Shown here: positions 6,806 to 12,746 of the stretch, piece by piece
Layout of the letters: each line of letters begins with the position of its first letter
Position numbering within the stretch: position 1 is the first letter of the stretch
NCBI RefSeq assembly: GCF_000721935.1
Contig: NZ_KL585387.1
Coordinates: forward strand, 92,591 to 110,678
DNA length: 18,088 nt
Source: Streptomyces sp. NRRL WC-3549
GTDB taxonomy: Bacteria; Actinomycetota; Actinomycetes; Streptomycetales; Streptomycetaceae
Direction: 5' to 3'
Translations under genes and position numbers: made by a program
Notes under the pieces: generated by a model
Told to the model about the DNA's origin: nothing
Seen by the model: only the letters and a program-made list of their open reading frames with translations
The model's database searches: none

Positions 6806-7417
6806 TCAGGCGCGCGGGCGCCCGGCGGCTACCGCGGCCGCCACGTCGAGGGTCACCTCGGCCCCGATCGAGCCGGGCAGCGCGGCCGTCTGGCCGGGGG
6901 CGTACACCTCGTGGTTGTCGTAGCCGCAGCCGGTGGGCTCGGTGAGGACGTGCACCCGGCCGTGCCTGCGGTCGATGATCACGTAGACCGGGATCTTGGC
7001 CTCGGCGTACGCGGCGACCTTGTTGCGCAGGTCGTTCTTGTAGTTGCCCGAGGTCACCTCCAGCACGAGGCGGAAGACGGCCGGGTCGTAGCAGTTGTTC
7101 TCGATCAGGTGCGCGTCGAAGTCGGCGTCGACGATCGCCAGGTCCGGGACGGCGTAGTCCTCGGGGCTGCCGGGCAGCCAGAGGCCGACGGCCTGGAGGA
7201 CCTCCGTCTCTCCGTCGTCGAGCCCGGCCGCGATGAAGGGCCGCATGATCTTGGTCAGAGCGCGGGCGTGCGGGCCGTCCGGGGGTGGGGCCACGGTGAT
7301 GACGCCTCCGATGATCTCGACGCGATGCCCCGGAAGCCGCTCCATGAGGCGGTTCGCCGTCACGAGCATGGGTTCCGGCTCATCGTCACAGGGGTGCTCG
7401 ACTGCTGCTGCAGACAT
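6806..7417 (-). CDS. Uma2-family (DUF820) putative nuclease-fold protein
   Basis: The 203-residue protein has the PD-(D/E)XK-like pattern of the Uma2 family. Visible elements are VEIIGGVITVAPPP with E34, YAVPDLAIVD with D92, RLVLEVTS with E120, and NKVAAYAEAKIPVYVIID with K133. All putative metal and catalytic positions are present. The family is abundant and highly duplicated in Streptomyces and cyanobacteria; a nuclease role is predicted from the fold, but the biology is unclear. AGGAGG (7424-7429, seen as CCTCCT on the plus strand) lies 6 nt before the ATG, so the start is well supported. The gene stands alone, converging on the phosphatase with 25 bp between them. It follows serC on the same strand but is separated from it by a terminator hairpin. 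Confidence 0.85.
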   Translation of the reverse strand: MSAAAVEHPCDDEPEPMLVTANRLMERLPGHRVEIIGGVITVAPPPDGPHARALTKIMRPFIAAGLDDGETEVLQAVGLWLPGSPEDYAVPDLAIVDADFDAHLIENNCYDPAVFRLVLEVTSGNYKNDLRNKVAAYAEAKIPVYVIIDRRHGRVHVLTEPTGCGYDNHEVYAPGQTAALPGSIGAEVTLDVAAAVAAGRPRA

Positions 7418-7564: not shown

Positions 7565-8803
<1,239 letters not shown>

Positions 8804-10051
8804 TCAACCCAGGGTGACGGGAAGCTCGTACAGGTCGTTCTGGGTCACGATCGGCTTGTTGCGCAGCTCGGACGGGTCGACGGCCAGTGCCAGGCCGGGG
8901 AACCGCTCGTACAGCGCGGGCAGGGCGACGGCGGCCTCCAGCCGGGACAGGGCGGCGCCCGGGCAGACGTGCGGGCCGTGACCGAAGGAGATGTGCCGGT
9001 TGGGGGAGCGGGTGACGTCGAACTCCGTCGCCGTGGGGCCCCACTGCTTCTCGTCGCGGTTGAGGGCGGCGAACGAGATCATGGTGCCCTCGCCCTTCGG
9101 CAGGATCCGGTCGCCGACCTGGACGTCCTCGGTGGCGAACCGGATCAGGATGTGCGACGTCGGCGCGGACCAGCGCAGCGCCTCCTCGATCGCACCGTCC
9201 CAGCTCGCCTCGCCGGCCAGTACGGCCCGGCGCTGCTCCGGGTGGCGCTCCAGGGCGACGACCGTGTTCACGATCAGGCTGATCGTGGTCTCGTGACCGG
9301 CGGCGATGATCAGCTTCAGGGTGTTGAGGATCTCGTCGTCGGTGAGGTGGTCGCCGTCCTCGGAGGCGTTGAGCAGCGCCCAGGTGAGGTCGTCGGCCGG
9401 CGACTGCTTCTTCTCGTCGAGGATGCGCGAGAACAGCGTGTGGATGCCCGCCATCGTCTTCGGCACCTCGGACGGCGGGGTCTGGTTGGAGAAGAACCTG
9501 TCGAAGAGGCGCTTCATCTCGGGCAGGTCGGCGGAGTCGACGCCCATCAGCTCGCTGATGACGTTCATCGGGAGCGGGTAGGCGAACTCGGCCTTGAGGT
9601 CCACGCTCTCACCCGCCGGGCGCTCCGCGAGGCGGTCCAGCAGGACCTTCGTGCGGGCCTCGATCCCCGCCCGCAGGCGCTCCACCCGGCGGGCGGTCAG
9701 GGCCTGGGCCACCAGTCCGCGCAGCCGGCGGTGCTCGGCGCCGTCCGCGGTGAGCATGGTGCGGCCCGGGTTGACCAGGCCGATCAGCGGCCAGTCCAGC
9801 GGGATCTCACCGCGCTGCCAGGCGCCCCAGACGTTGATGTCCTTCACCAGGCGGCCGTCGGTGAGGGCCGCCTTGGCCTCGGCGTAGTGGGTGATCGCGT
9901 AGACCGGTATGCCGCCCGGCAGTTCGACCTTCGCGAGCGGGCCCGCCGCGTGCAGCCGGGCGCTCTCCCCGGGGAGGTCCCCGACGAACGGGTCCAGGAC
10001 GATACGTTCCTGCTCGACGGCACCGGTCGGTTCTGCGGTCGTCGCGGTCAT
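8804..10051 (-). CDS. cytochrome P450, CYP154-type
   Basis: This 415-residue soluble P450 has all the usual hallmarks: the C-helix AEHRRLR (105-111), the I-helix oxygen-activation motif AGHETT (251-256), K-helix EALR (290-293, EXXR intact), and heme-binding loop FGHGPHVCPGA (356-366) with C363 as the iron ligand. The overall sequence (RIVLDPFV near the start, VKDINVWGAWQRGEIP, RNKPIVTQNDLYELPV at the end) resembles the CYP154 family as I recall it. CYP154 members hydroxylate steroids and other large molecules; the substrate here is unknown. The start ATG overlaps the stop of the preceding P450 by 4 bp (ATGA, 10048-10051), implying translational coupling. It is the last gene of the conservon operon. 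No ferredoxin or reductase gene is in the window, so electrons must come from elsewhere. Confidence 0.9.
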   Translation of the reverse strand: MTATTAEPTGAVEQERIVLDPFVGDLPGESARLHAAGPLAKVELPGGIPVYAITHYAEAKAALTDGRLVKDINVWGAWQRGEIPLDWPLIGLVNPGRTMLTADGAEHRRLRGLVAQALTARRVERLRAGIEARTKVLLDRLAERPAGESVDLKAEFAYPLPMNVISELMGVDSADLPEMKRLFDRFFSNQTPPSEVPKTMAGIHTLFSRILDEKKQSPADDLTWALLNASEDGDHLTDDEILNTLKLIIAAGHETTISLIVNTVVALERHPEQRRAVLAGEASWDGAIEEALRWSAPTSHILIRFATEDVQVGDRILPKGEGTMISFAALNRDEKQWGPTATEFDVTRSPNRHISFGHGPHVCPGAALSRLEAAVALPALYERFPGLALAVDPSELRNKPIVTQNDLYELPVTLG

Positions 10052-11295
10052 CGCTGGCCTCCAAGGGCGGGGGTGGGAGTGAAACGGACCGGCAGGTCCT
10101 TCAGGCCGCGGAGCCACGGGGAGGGCCGCCGGGTCAACTGGTCTGCGGGTACGGCGAGGTCGACGTCCGGCAGCCGGTCGAGGATGACCTCGATCGCCGT
10201 ACGGGCGACCGTCTCGGCGATCTCCTGTGCCGGGAAGGGGCAGCGGTGGTCGCCGTGGCCGAACGAGAAGAAGGCGTTGTTGCCGCCGGTGAGGACGGTC
10301 CCGTCCGTGCGCACCCGAGGATCGGAGTTGGCCCCCGCCAGGCTGAGGACCAGCAGGTCGCCGGCCTTGATGTGGCAGCCGCCGAGGTGGGTGTCGCGGG
10401 TGGCCCAGCGGCCCGCGATGTTCTGCGAGGGGGTGTCCTCCCACAGCACCTCGTTCATGGCCTCGGCGACGCTGTGCCGGCCGCCGGAGAGCGAGGCGGC
10501 GAACCGGTCGTCGGTGAGCATGAGGCGCAGGGAGTTGCCGATCCAGTCGGCCGTCGGCTGGTGGCCGGCGGCCATCATGACCATGAGGTCACGGGCCACC
10601 TCCTCGTCCGTGAAGCCGGAGGTGCCGGCGAGCATGCGGCTGGTCACGTCGTCGCCGGGGGCGGCGCGCCGCTCGGCCACCAGCTGGAACACGGAGGTGG
10701 CGATGTGGCGCTGCCCCGCGAGGGCGTCCGGGCCGCCGTTGATCATGTCGTTCATCGCGGTGACGAGGGCGGGCCCCTTGTCGTCGTCGAAGCCGAAGAG
10801 CTTCGCCAGCACCCGGACGGGCAGCATCATCGCGTACGAGGCGATGAGGTCGGTGGTGCCGGCCGTGCAGAAGGCGTCGATGAGTCCGTCCGCGAACACC
10901 TCGGTGTGCTGCTTGAGCTCGAACGGGTCCTCTGCCTCCAGCGCGCCGCTGATCAGGGCGGAGCGCCGGCTGTGCCGTTCGCCGACGGTGTAGAGGATCG
11001 AGGGCTGGTCCCGGCTGATCATCGGCATCAGCGGCCAGTCCTCGGGGATGCGGGGCCACTGGTTCCACAGGAGCGAGTCGCGGCTGAAGAGCACCGGGTC
11101 GCTGGTGAGCTGGTGCAGCTCGCGGTAGCCGACGACCAGCCAGGCGGGGACGTCCCCGGGCAGGACGATCGGTGCGACCGCCCCGTGGTCGCGCCTGATC
11201 GCCCGGTACAGCTCGACGGGTTCGGCCTGGAACCGCGGGCTGGAGAGGTCGACGGCGCCGGAGGTGGCACCTGCCGCGTGCGGGCACTGGGTCAC
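10048..11295 (-). CDS. cytochrome P450, CYP157-type lacking the EXXR motif
   Basis: This 415-residue P450-fold protein has heme loop SFGHGDHRCPFPAQ (344-357) with C352, and I-helix AGHQPT (243-248). The K-helix, however, reads NEVLWEDTPSQN, so the normally invariant Arg of EXXR is Trp (E282-V-L-W285). CYP157 proteins of Streptomyces are known for this loss, and the C-terminal pattern (PSPWLRGLKDLPVRFTP) also fits that family as I recall it. They are often encoded beside a CYP154 gene in conservons. Whether this protein oxidises a substrate or acts as a heme-binding regulator is open. The start is GTG 11295, overlapping the cvnD stop as GTGA (11292-11295), and the end overlaps the next P450 by ATGA. 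The C-helix WxxxR is also unusual, reading GERHSRRSALI. Confidence 0.9.
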   Translation of the reverse strand: MTQCPHAAGATSGAVDLSSPRFQAEPVELYRAIRRDHGAVAPIVLPGDVPAWLVVGYRELHQLTSDPVLFSRDSLLWNQWPRIPEDWPLMPMISRDQPSILYTVGERHSRRSALISGALEAEDPFELKQHTEVFADGLIDAFCTAGTTDLIASYAMMLPVRVLAKLFGFDDDKGPALVTAMNDMINGGPDALAGQRHIATSVFQLVAERRAAPGDDVTSRMLAGTSGFTDEEVARDLMVMMAAGHQPTADWIGNSLRLMLTDDRFAASLSGGRHSVAEAMNEVLWEDTPSQNIAGRWATRDTHLGGCHIKAGDLLVLSLAGANSDPRVRTDGTVLTGGNNAFFSFGHGDHRCPFPAQEIAETVARTAIEVILDRLPDVDLAVPADQLTRRPSPWLRGLKDLPVRFTPTPALGGQR

Positions 11296-11951
11296 GGGTT
11301 GGGCTCCGGGGTCAGGGCGGCCAGGGGCTGGTCGCCGGCCCCGGCGGCCCCGTGGCCGCCCCGGGCGCGGGCGACGGACAGGGCGTGCAGGTGCTCGACG
11401 AGTGTGATCAGGACGTACTTGCTGGAGGAGCGGTCCCGGGCGTCGCACTCGACGAGCGGGACGTCCGGGGAGAGGTCCAGCGCCTCACGGATCTGCTGCT
11501 CGGTGTGGAGCGGGCCGCCGAAGTCGTTGCACGCGACGATGAACGGCGTGCCGTGGTGCTCCAGCCGGTCGATCGCGTACCAGGAGTCCGCGAGCCGCCG
11601 GGTGTCGACGAGGACGACGGCTCCCAGGGTCCCGGAGAAGAGGCGGTCCCACAGGAACCAGAAGCGTTCCTGGCCGGGGGCGCCGAAGAGGTAGAGGACC
11701 GAACGCGCGTCGAGCGTGATGCGGCCGAAGTCGAAGGCGACCGTGGTGGACGTCTTGGAGTCCACACCGTCGAGGTCGTCGACGGCCTCGCCCGCGCGGG
11801 TCATGGTCTCCTCCGTGTTGAGCGGACGGATCTCGCTCACGGAGCGGACCATGGTGGTCTTGCCGACCCCGAAGCCGCCGACCACGACGATCTTCAGTCC
11901 GTTGTCGGCCGTCGCCTGCAGAGCGGCACGGTCAGAGGTTGCGGAGTCCAA
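11292..11951 (-). CDS. cvnD: conservon GTP-binding protein CvnD (MglA/Rab-like)
   Basis: This 219-residue small GTPase-like protein has P-loop GGFGVGKT (25-32, K31), switch I region TSTTVAFDFGRI (67-78), and switch II FGAPGQERFWFLWDRL (89-104), where the usual DxxG is replaced by GAPG. Residues 138-146 (IVACNDFGG) occupy the place of NKxD, with no Lys or canonical Asp spacing; this divergence is usual in conservon GTPases. With CvnA-C it should form a membrane-associated, G-protein-like signalling complex. The start is taken as TTG 11951, preceded by AGGTG, which overlaps cvnC by about 20 bp. The in-frame ATG at 11999 would add 16 residues translated from cvnC sequence. The gene is followed by a GTGA overlap with the CYP157 gene. 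Confidence 0.9.
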   Translation of the reverse strand: MDSATSDRAALQATADNGLKIVVVGGFGVGKTTMVRSVSEIRPLNTEETMTRAGEAVDDLDGVDSKTSTTVAFDFGRITLDARSVLYLFGAPGQERFWFLWDRLFSGTLGAVVLVDTRRLADSWYAIDRLEHHGTPFIVACNDFGGPLHTEQQIREALDLSPDVPLVECDARDRSSSKYVLITLVEHLHALSVARARGGHGAAGAGDQPLAALTPEPNP

Positions 11952-12303
11952 CGAGCACCTGTTCCAGGGTGTCGGTGTCGGGGAGCTGGTCCGCGACACG
12001 GGCAGTACGGGGATGGCGTGCGCTGATCCGGCCGGTGTCGAGCAGGTCGCAGAGCATGATGCGGACGATGCCGACGGGCAGATTCAGGGTGGCCGAGATC
12101 TCGACGACGGCGGTGGGGCGTTCGCACATCCGCAGGATCGCGGCGTGTTCCGACTGCATCCCGGGGGCCGGGTCGCACTCGGCGACGACCAGGGTCACCA
12201 GGTCGAACGCGTCCGAGTCGGACCGGCTGCGGCCCCCGGTGAGGGTGTACAGCCGGTCCGGGGCGTCGTCACGCCCGGGGCGGGGTCGCGGCGCCGACGT
12301 CAT
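11932..12303 (-). CDS. cvnC: conservon protein CvnC (DUF742)
   Basis: The 123-residue protein opens with a short basic/proline tail and then RLYTLTGGRSRS, the conserved 'R.Y.lTgGRt' start of DUF742 proteins. The rest (CDPAPGMQSEHAAILRMCERPTAVVEISATLNLPVGIVRIMLCDLLDTGRI, taken in parts) reads as a winged-helix-like domain in which a short helix-turn-helix (VEISATLNLPVGIVRIML) is visible. In conservons it partners the kinase-like CvnA, roadblock protein CvnB and GTPase CvnD; its biochemical activity is not established. The start codon overlaps the cvnB stop as ATGA (12300-12303), and the end overlaps cvnD. Confidence 0.92.
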   Translation of the reverse strand: MTSAPRPRPGRDDAPDRLYTLTGGRSRSDSDAFDLVTLVVAECDPAPGMQSEHAAILRMCERPTAVVEISATLNLPVGIVRIMLCDLLDTGRISARHPRTARVADQLPDTDTLEQVLVGLRNL

Positions 12304-12746
12304 ACGTCCGCGGATTCCGTGGCCCCGGCCACCGCGTCGGTCCCGTCGGAGGTGCGCGGCGGGGCCACCAGGTGCTCGCCGAGCTGCTCGACGAGTTCGC
12401 TCATGTTGTGGCCGACGAGGCCGACGTCGGAGTCCTCCGCGGCGACGACCGCGAGATGGGCGCCGGCGCCCGCCTCGACGATGAACAGCACCCCGCCGTA
12501 GAACTCGGCCATCGCGGAGCGCACGCCGCCGGTGCCGTCACCGAACTCCACGGACGCGCCGTGCGACAGGCTCTGGATACCGGCGGAGATCGCGGCGAGC
12601 TGGTCGGCCTGGTCGACGGAGAGCTCGGGCGTACGGCACAGCTTCAGGCCGTCCCGGGACAGGACCAGGGCGTGCCGGGCGCCGGGTGTGCGTTCCAGCA
12701 GCCCCTCCAGCAGCCAGTTGAGCTTCTCGTCGGTGGTCGCGGTCAT
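12300..12746 (-). CDS. cvnB: conservon protein CvnB (Roadblock/LC7 domain)
   Basis: The 148-residue protein carries a Roadblock/LC7 domain over about residues 8-118: KLNWLLEGLLERTPGARHALVLSRDGLKL, then DQADQLAAISAGIQSLSHGASVEFG, then YGGVLFIVEAGAGAHLAVVAAEDSDVGLVGHNM. Domains of this fold, such as MglB, act on MglA/Rab-like GTPases, which fits its pairing with CvnD. The C-terminal 25 residues are low-complexity (Ala/Asp/Thr). The start ATG overlaps the cvnA stop by 4 bp (ATGA, 12743-12746), and its own stop overlaps cvnC the same way, so translation is coupled through the block. Confidence 0.93.
   Translation of the reverse strand: MTATTDEKLNWLLEGLLERTPGARHALVLSRDGLKLCRTPELSVDQADQLAAISAGIQSLSHGASVEFGDGTGGVRSAMAEFYGGVLFIVEAGAGAHLAVVAAEDSDVGLVGHNMSELVEQLGEHLVAPPRTSDGTDAVAGATESADV

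Follow-up and report, generated by a model that had tools for sequence, protein, structure and literature searches.

Is a P450 that lacks the K-helix arginine still a P450 and, if so, what does it do? The Glu-x-x-Arg (EXXR) motif of that helix is used as a criterion for genuine P450s, and two Streptomyces surveys, in the portions available, class a sequence with only one of EXXR and CXG as a pseudo-P450 or a fragment (PMC6408508, PMC7369989). The window analysed here, an 18,088-nucleotide stretch of Streptomyces sp. NRRL WC-3549 (contig NZ_KL585387.1, positions 92,591-110,678), carries a gene of the CYP157A type in which the motif reads Glu-Val-Leu-Trp (EVLW), directly downstream of a conservon, an actinobacterial G-protein system (cvnA-D). 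Random decay does not account for the EXXR loss at this locus, which is fixed, goes along with losses at the other functional arginines and in the oxygen-activating pair, and characterises a single position in the operon. Judged from the sequences compared, the set of fixed losses suggests a P450 turned from an enzyme into a sensor or regulator.

The K-helix arginine is replaced by a fixed tryptophan

Nucleotides 10452-10441 of the minus strand read GAG GTG CTG TGG and encode Glu282-Val-Leu-Trp285 (residues counted from the GTG at 11295), as the first-pass annotation had pointed out when proposing that fixation be checked among relatives. E282, V283, L284 and W285 are each present in 81/81 sequences (the window plus 80 related loci with 71-93% identity, titled Streptomyces except one Microtetraspora and one [Kitasatospora]; A type hereafter), codon 285 is TGG in all 81, and NEVLW occurs in 120/120 protein matches listed (the best 120 of 2096; the two further protein searches used below examine the best 120 of 2247 and the best 120 of 361). 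TGG and CGG are one base apart and an adapter join is present elsewhere in this genome's assembly, so that EVLW might be a sequencing error, or the mark of a decaying pseudogene. Its fixation in 81 loci, with arginine at codon 285 in none of them, already refutes an error; in addition the window is free of Nextera adapter with up to 3 mismatches allowed, the 415-aa frame is intact and the ratio of nonsynonymous to synonymous substitution (dN/dS) against the nearest relative (L017) is 0.13, leaving error or decay with virtually no credence. Nor does another nearby arginine take the EXXR place in the K-helix of the window.

EVLW in CYP157A is already known and in print. The available part of PMC3599690 gives GHQPT, EVLW and FSFGHGxHRCPFPA for Svu023, a CYP157A of S. 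virginiae IBL14 (Table 2), and states EVLW together with conservon linkage for CYP157A2 of S. avermitilis; the window protein has the same three motifs, with no difference that matters. The CYP157 family was named for lacking EXXR (FEBS Lett 2006, 580:6338, seen in part). The earlier statements that this is a conservon P450 of CYP157 type and that the missing arginine is a described family trait agree with the literature (PMC3599690). The assignment to CYP157A rests on the motifs, shared with the relatives above, and on the position directly downstream of the conservon, whose CvnA-D domains are encoded upstream; the matches obtained include no sequence that bears a CYP157 label.

Window 10048-11295 is a P450 by sequence and fold, despite the absence of a Pfam match. 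A phmmer search of P450s in the PDB, made with the longer 466-aa open frame, returns CYP154C1 (1gwi) as best match (E 4.9e-47), while Pfam finds no family in 10048-11295 at E 0.001 and PF00067 scores the partner P450 next to it at 97.8 bits. A six-frame PF00067 search of the genome lists two partner stretches, none from the CYP157A gene of the window, and none of the genome's four CvnE genes (window; G000:C22, C20 and C43). Precomputed PF00067 annotation is present on 4/120 A-type matches listed and on most of the C-type (CYP157C-like) matches listed, and counts that rely on Pfam may overlook P450s of this kind.

Further losses at the I-helix, meander, C-helix and L-helix

The comparison covers 192 conservon P450s (the window protein, its 80 related loci and another 111 distinct sequences, with near relatives over-represented) and 152 canonical rows, mostly CYP154-type partners from the same loci; L193, with an adapter in its K-helix, and the 30 loci L232-L261 are left out of both counts. 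Firstly, the EXXR-Arg position is W177/F10/R2/H1/Y1/Q1 in the conservon P450s vs arginine in 152/152 canonical rows, and thus aromatic in 188/192. The residue at -3 is E in 155, Q in 22, D in 9, L in 4, H in 1 and T in 1, so that conservation is weaker for the glutamate than for the aromatic position. W285, E286 and D287 had been put forward as substitutes for the lost contacts: W285 stands as the strongest single candidate, while E286 (80/81) and D287 (81/81) hold within the A type and give way elsewhere to LD, DD, DE, NE, RF and others, and so are not a family-wide solution. Arg329, at a column that is arginine in 145/192 conservon P450s (80/81 A type) and in 0/152 canonical rows, is a second candidate substitute besides W285. 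As a stand-in for the EXXR arginine itself this new conserved arginine near the meander was rejected, not being universal.

Secondly, the I-helix AGxxxT motif is kept in letters (AGHQPT) and not in function-bearing columns, which amends the first-pass annotation. The acid column (E in 147/152 canonical P450s) aligns with Q246 and the catalytic-Thr column (T in 150/152) with P247, T248 being the next residue; Q246 and P247 are invariant at the codon level in the 81 A-type sequences, and an acid plus Thr/Ser pair occurs in 14/192 conservon P450s vs 147/152 canonical ones. We take these columns to correspond to T268/E267 of P450BM3 and T252/D251 of P450cam.

Thirdly, the meander arginine of FDxxR, which is part of the Glu-Arg-Arg (ERR) triad and is present in 152/152 canonical P450s, is missing in the window P450. 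A loose FDxxR pattern is found in 2/192 conservon P450s, both times as MEGNR in another register, and the meander Phe column is a gap or Gly in 192/192 vs F/L/M in 152/152. Finally, the two arginines that are presumably the equivalents of P450cam R112 (C-helix) and R364 (L-helix) on the redox-partner face are lost from the A type. The HxxxR arginine of the C-helix is present in 151/152 canonical, 63/192 conservon and 0/81 A-type sequences (A76/S4/Q1 of 81 at this position); the L-helix position, R143+K9 of 152 in canonical P450s and R in 39/192 conservon P450s, is Glu in 81/81 (E361).

Other positions are retained. C352, correctly identified before as the heme cysteine (TGC at 10242-10240), is Cys in 192/192, H108 is kept in 190/192 and H350 in 182/192, and the R296 column, which we assume to be a heme propionate contact, is R in 157 and H in 19 of the 192 and R in 152/152 canonical rows. 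Of the features of a catalytic monooxygenase, the window protein accordingly has the heme-thiolate Cys and lacks both the ERR triad (EXXR plus meander Arg) and, in the oxygen-activation columns of the I-helix, the acid and the Thr. To our knowledge, this I-helix pair is not a strict requirement for every known P450. The protein might be an active P450 with an unusual core, its ERR lock structurally replaced by Trp285 and Arg329; it would use the peroxide shunt, substrate-assisted proton delivery or electrons from an unusual partner, with CYP157A and its CYP154C neighbour acting in series. The replacement of the acid and Thr columns in 81/81, the equally complete loss of the C-helix and L-helix arginines and the absence of FDxxR argue against such an enzyme, which we consider unlikely, if still a serious contender.

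In the AlphaFold2 model of CYP157A (mean predicted local distance difference test score, pLDDT, 84) residues 339-351, the end of the meander and the start of the Cys loop, fall below 50. The control model of the canonical partner (mean 70, from a shallower alignment) is low at its Cys loop as well (354-362), and nothing is therefore drawn from the low stretch in CYP157A. A short helix at 334-340 in the meander region of the partner model is without a counterpart in the CYP157A model, giving weak evidence that the K' helix is lost.

Conservon P450s form one branch with graded losses

A census based on DUF742 rather than on P450 similarity (6 hand-picked of 10 genomes, 56 conservon loci, without one weak DUF742 match below the cut-off at G047:C1:7352096) places a P450 directly after CvnD in 20/56 loci, with W at the EXXR-Arg position in 17, H in 1 (L211), R in 1 (L225) and 1 unreadable (L193). 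A second P450 on the same strand is found in 8 loci, with EXXR in 8/8. The conservon P450s group as one branch in two trees (42/42 and 54/54; Shimodaira-Hasegawa-like approximate likelihood ratio support, SH-aLRT, 100). The unreadable case is another conservon P450 of the window's own genome (G000:C43:147213-155473), in which a Nextera adapter interrupts the K-helix at position 3047-3060 of L193; by eye, L159 has adapter-like ends next to runs of N.

The losses differ in extent between three types. In the A type the ERR triad, the acid, the Thr and both docking arginines are lost. The C type has lost the ERR triad and kept most else: CYP157C (CYP157C1, EQSLW), judged from C-type relatives, is like CYP157A in the Trp at the Arg position, the place after the conservon and the lack of FDxxR, and differs in having Gln at -3 and Glu (once Asp) at -4, in keeping the T/S column and mostly the acid, and in the absence of a second same-strand P450. 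In the R/H type the K-helix arginine is often present and the meander arginine absent. A search with an R-type query covering the sub-branch L225/L211/P0244-P0363 gives H 63, R 56, C 1 and L 1 of 121 (query plus the best 120 of 361), with F[DN]xxR in none and Pro in the Thr column in 121/121. R/H rows in one tree, and R/H/Q rows in the other, nest among W rows, so that the arginine may have been regained; the stronger claim of an ancestral W with Arg/His derived later was dropped, as the alternative survives approximately unbiased (AU) tests (p 0.067; p 0.073). Because graded natural variants exist, catalysis without EXXR, and the purpose of such proteins, become testable.

Outside these types, two genomes of another family (G109 and G293, f3) have Phe at the position in most copies; each has a conservon with three DEVLF CvnE-type P450s and one EXXR P450 after CvnD (L263 and L264, respectively), and one A-like copy in G109 (L267) has Trp. 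Among 296 genomes sampled evenly across the phylum, with at most 5 candidates scored in each, 15 have a match at 1e-60, and the matches in G133, G262, G305 and G337 are EXXR P450s. A second P450 of the window's genome (L014; G000:C16, match 76504-76749) seems to have lost the ERR triad too, with VADRLIHLVP at the EXXR place and a meander without FDxxR; GGHDST and FGAGAHYCLG are retained.

The conservon and the CYP154 partner

The run cvnA-B-C-D-CYP157-CYP154 (Table 1) overlaps at every boundary in open reading frame coordinates, that of cvnD with an uncertain start. Among the 80 A-type relatives, CvnD is upstream in 76/80 (three of the other four have <700 bases upstream and L032 is unexplained), and a CYP154 partner directly follows in 80/80, its first start within 181 bases in all 80 and with a 4-base overlap in 69/80. 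CYP157A evolves under constraint like the partner gene, with median pairwise Nei-Gojobori (NG86) dN/dS of 0.317 (3227 pairs) and 0.324 (3230 pairs), crude values from non-independent pairs filtered at 0.1<dS<0.8. In sequence, the neighbour at 8804-10051 is of the canonical CYP154C1/C2 type (1gwi, 6l69, 7cl8, 9u53).

According to the accessible text of PMC13343842, CvnE and CvnF proteins go with CvnA proteins that lack sensor domains, and an AlphaFold2 contact of CvnE11 with the HATPase domains of CvnA11 is reported there. The window locus is alike, its P450 gene directly following cvnD and its 523-aa CvnA showing, as judged by eye, a pair of hydrophobic stretches near the N-terminus that are separated by about 10 residues, with no extracytoplasmic sensor domain between them. 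CvnA open frames have a median of 551 aa beside a P450 vs 932 without (18 vs 36; 54/56 loci, those with a readable CvnA; p 4e-9; in both groups some frames are truncated where the sequence compared ends), in agreement with that statement on sensor-less CvnA. CvnF8 is the protein studied in PMC13343842; in the portion available, the treatment of CvnE is confined to mapping and a model with CvnA11, and nothing is said on catalytic residues of CvnE.

That A-type loci always carry the CYP154 partner would also be in line with a pseudo-P450 scaffold whose role is to activate or stabilise this neighbour, as EryCII and DesVIII do for glycosyltransferases (PMC3391682, available in part). In such a scaffold, as in these proteins, a P450 fold would have lost catalysis and would serve a partner protein. 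The NCBIfam model TIGR04515 ("P450-derived glycosyltransferase activator") matches CYP157A at 85.5 bits, well short of the cut-off of 343. The CYP154C partner scores higher on the same model (119 bits), so the match is generic. EryCII-type proteins are without the heme cysteine, which is invariant here, the gene in the window lies in a signalling operon, and C-type conservon P450s have no second same-strand P450 in the stretches examined, which makes an activator role improbable.

A possible sensor or modulator of CvnA

Since the heme ligands are kept and the residues for electron entry and oxygen activation are lost, a heme or ligand sensor fits better than a monooxygenase, and the place in the operon points to CvnA. 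CYP157A may thus be a heme-thiolate P450 fold reused as a cytoplasmic sensor or modulator of CvnA, a proposal whose chances we judge evenly balanced. The protein would be the CvnE accessory subunit of the conservon, very probably still binding heme via Cys352, and would no longer have what ordinary monooxygenation requires. In place of the lock of an arginine at 285 with the Glu-Arg pair, Trp285 would provide aromatic packing, a charge perhaps being taken over by Arg329, and presumably no redox partner would dock. In the cytoplasm, such a sensor of heme or of a ligand, or such a modulator, would act on the CvnA kinase; it could respond to a ligand that the canonical CYP154C partner makes or consumes and pass the signal to the CvnA ATPase domain. 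In the open-access literature searched, we found no account of conservon P450s as a branch that has jointly lost the meander arginine, the docking arginines and the I-helix pair, nor any case for a sensor role built on this joint loss; the motif section of PMC3599690, in the part available, is silent on the I-helix Gln/Pro and the meander arginine.

Several observations weigh against a sensor. P450eryF has Ala at the Thr position and still works (consistent with the A245T entry 1z8q), CYP157C1 was reportedly purified as a P450 in the 2006 CYP157 study, and the canonical P450 adjacent to the A-type gene would also be compatible with two enzymes in series. C-type relatives retain T/S in the Thr column in 120/120 and Glu in the acid column in 101/120 (best 120 of 2247), L149, for example, keeps both the C-helix and the L-helix arginine, and an arginine aligns to the meander position in 13/192 conservon P450s, by our reading one residue off in the L161 type. 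The losses are thus graded across the branch, and the whole family can't be called inactive on these grounds. A wider version of the sensor proposal, which we advance tentatively and regard as rather doubtful, extends it to all CvnE proteins, as one clade of heme-thiolate pseudo-monooxygenases: the meander arginine would have been deleted on the stem, the K-helix arginine would then have become dispensable and been replaced by an aromatic residue, Arg/His would have come back in one sub-branch, and the A type would sense the product or substrate of CYP154C and tell CvnA. If this is true, the R/H sub-branch without a meander arginine would be a natural dissection of the ERR triad.

Features of the window

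Table 1. Coordinates of the P450 genes, their key residues and the conservon within the window
Feature	Position	Strand	Remarks
CYP157A-type P450 (CvnE), 415 aa	10048..11295	minus	GTG start overlaps cvnD stop
K-helix E282-V283-L284-W285 replacing EXXR	10441..10452	minus	codons GAG GTG CTG TGG
I-helix A243-G244-H245-Q246-P247-T248	10552..10569	minus	acid column = Gln, catalytic Thr column = Pro
C-helix H108-S-R-R-S112	10960..10974	minus	His retained, HxxxR Arg gone
R296 of GRWA	10408..10410	minus	column of canonical Arg
Shortened meander D325-F345 without FDxxR arginine	10261..10323	minus	
R329	10309..10311	minus	Arg at this column in conservon P450s only
C352, heme-thiolate ligand, TGC 10242-10240	10240..10242	minus	81/81 A type, 192/192 conservon P450s
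E361, L-helix arginine charge-reversed	10213..10215	minus	
CYP154C-like partner P450: AGHETT, EALR, FDVTR, CPG	8804..10051	minus	ATGA overlap with CYP157A
CvnD, small GTPase-like (PF03029), true start uncertain	11292..11999	minus	
CvnC (DUF742, PF05331)	11932..12303	minus	
CvnB (Roadblock/LC7, PF03259)	12300..12746	minus	
CvnA, histidine-kinase-like (PF02518), 523 aa	12743..14314	minus	

A PADLOC run gave no match. Downstream of CYP154 on the same strand lie a class-V aminotransferase-like frame and a Uma2 gene (putative restriction endonuclease fold), at 6806-7417 and 7565-8683.
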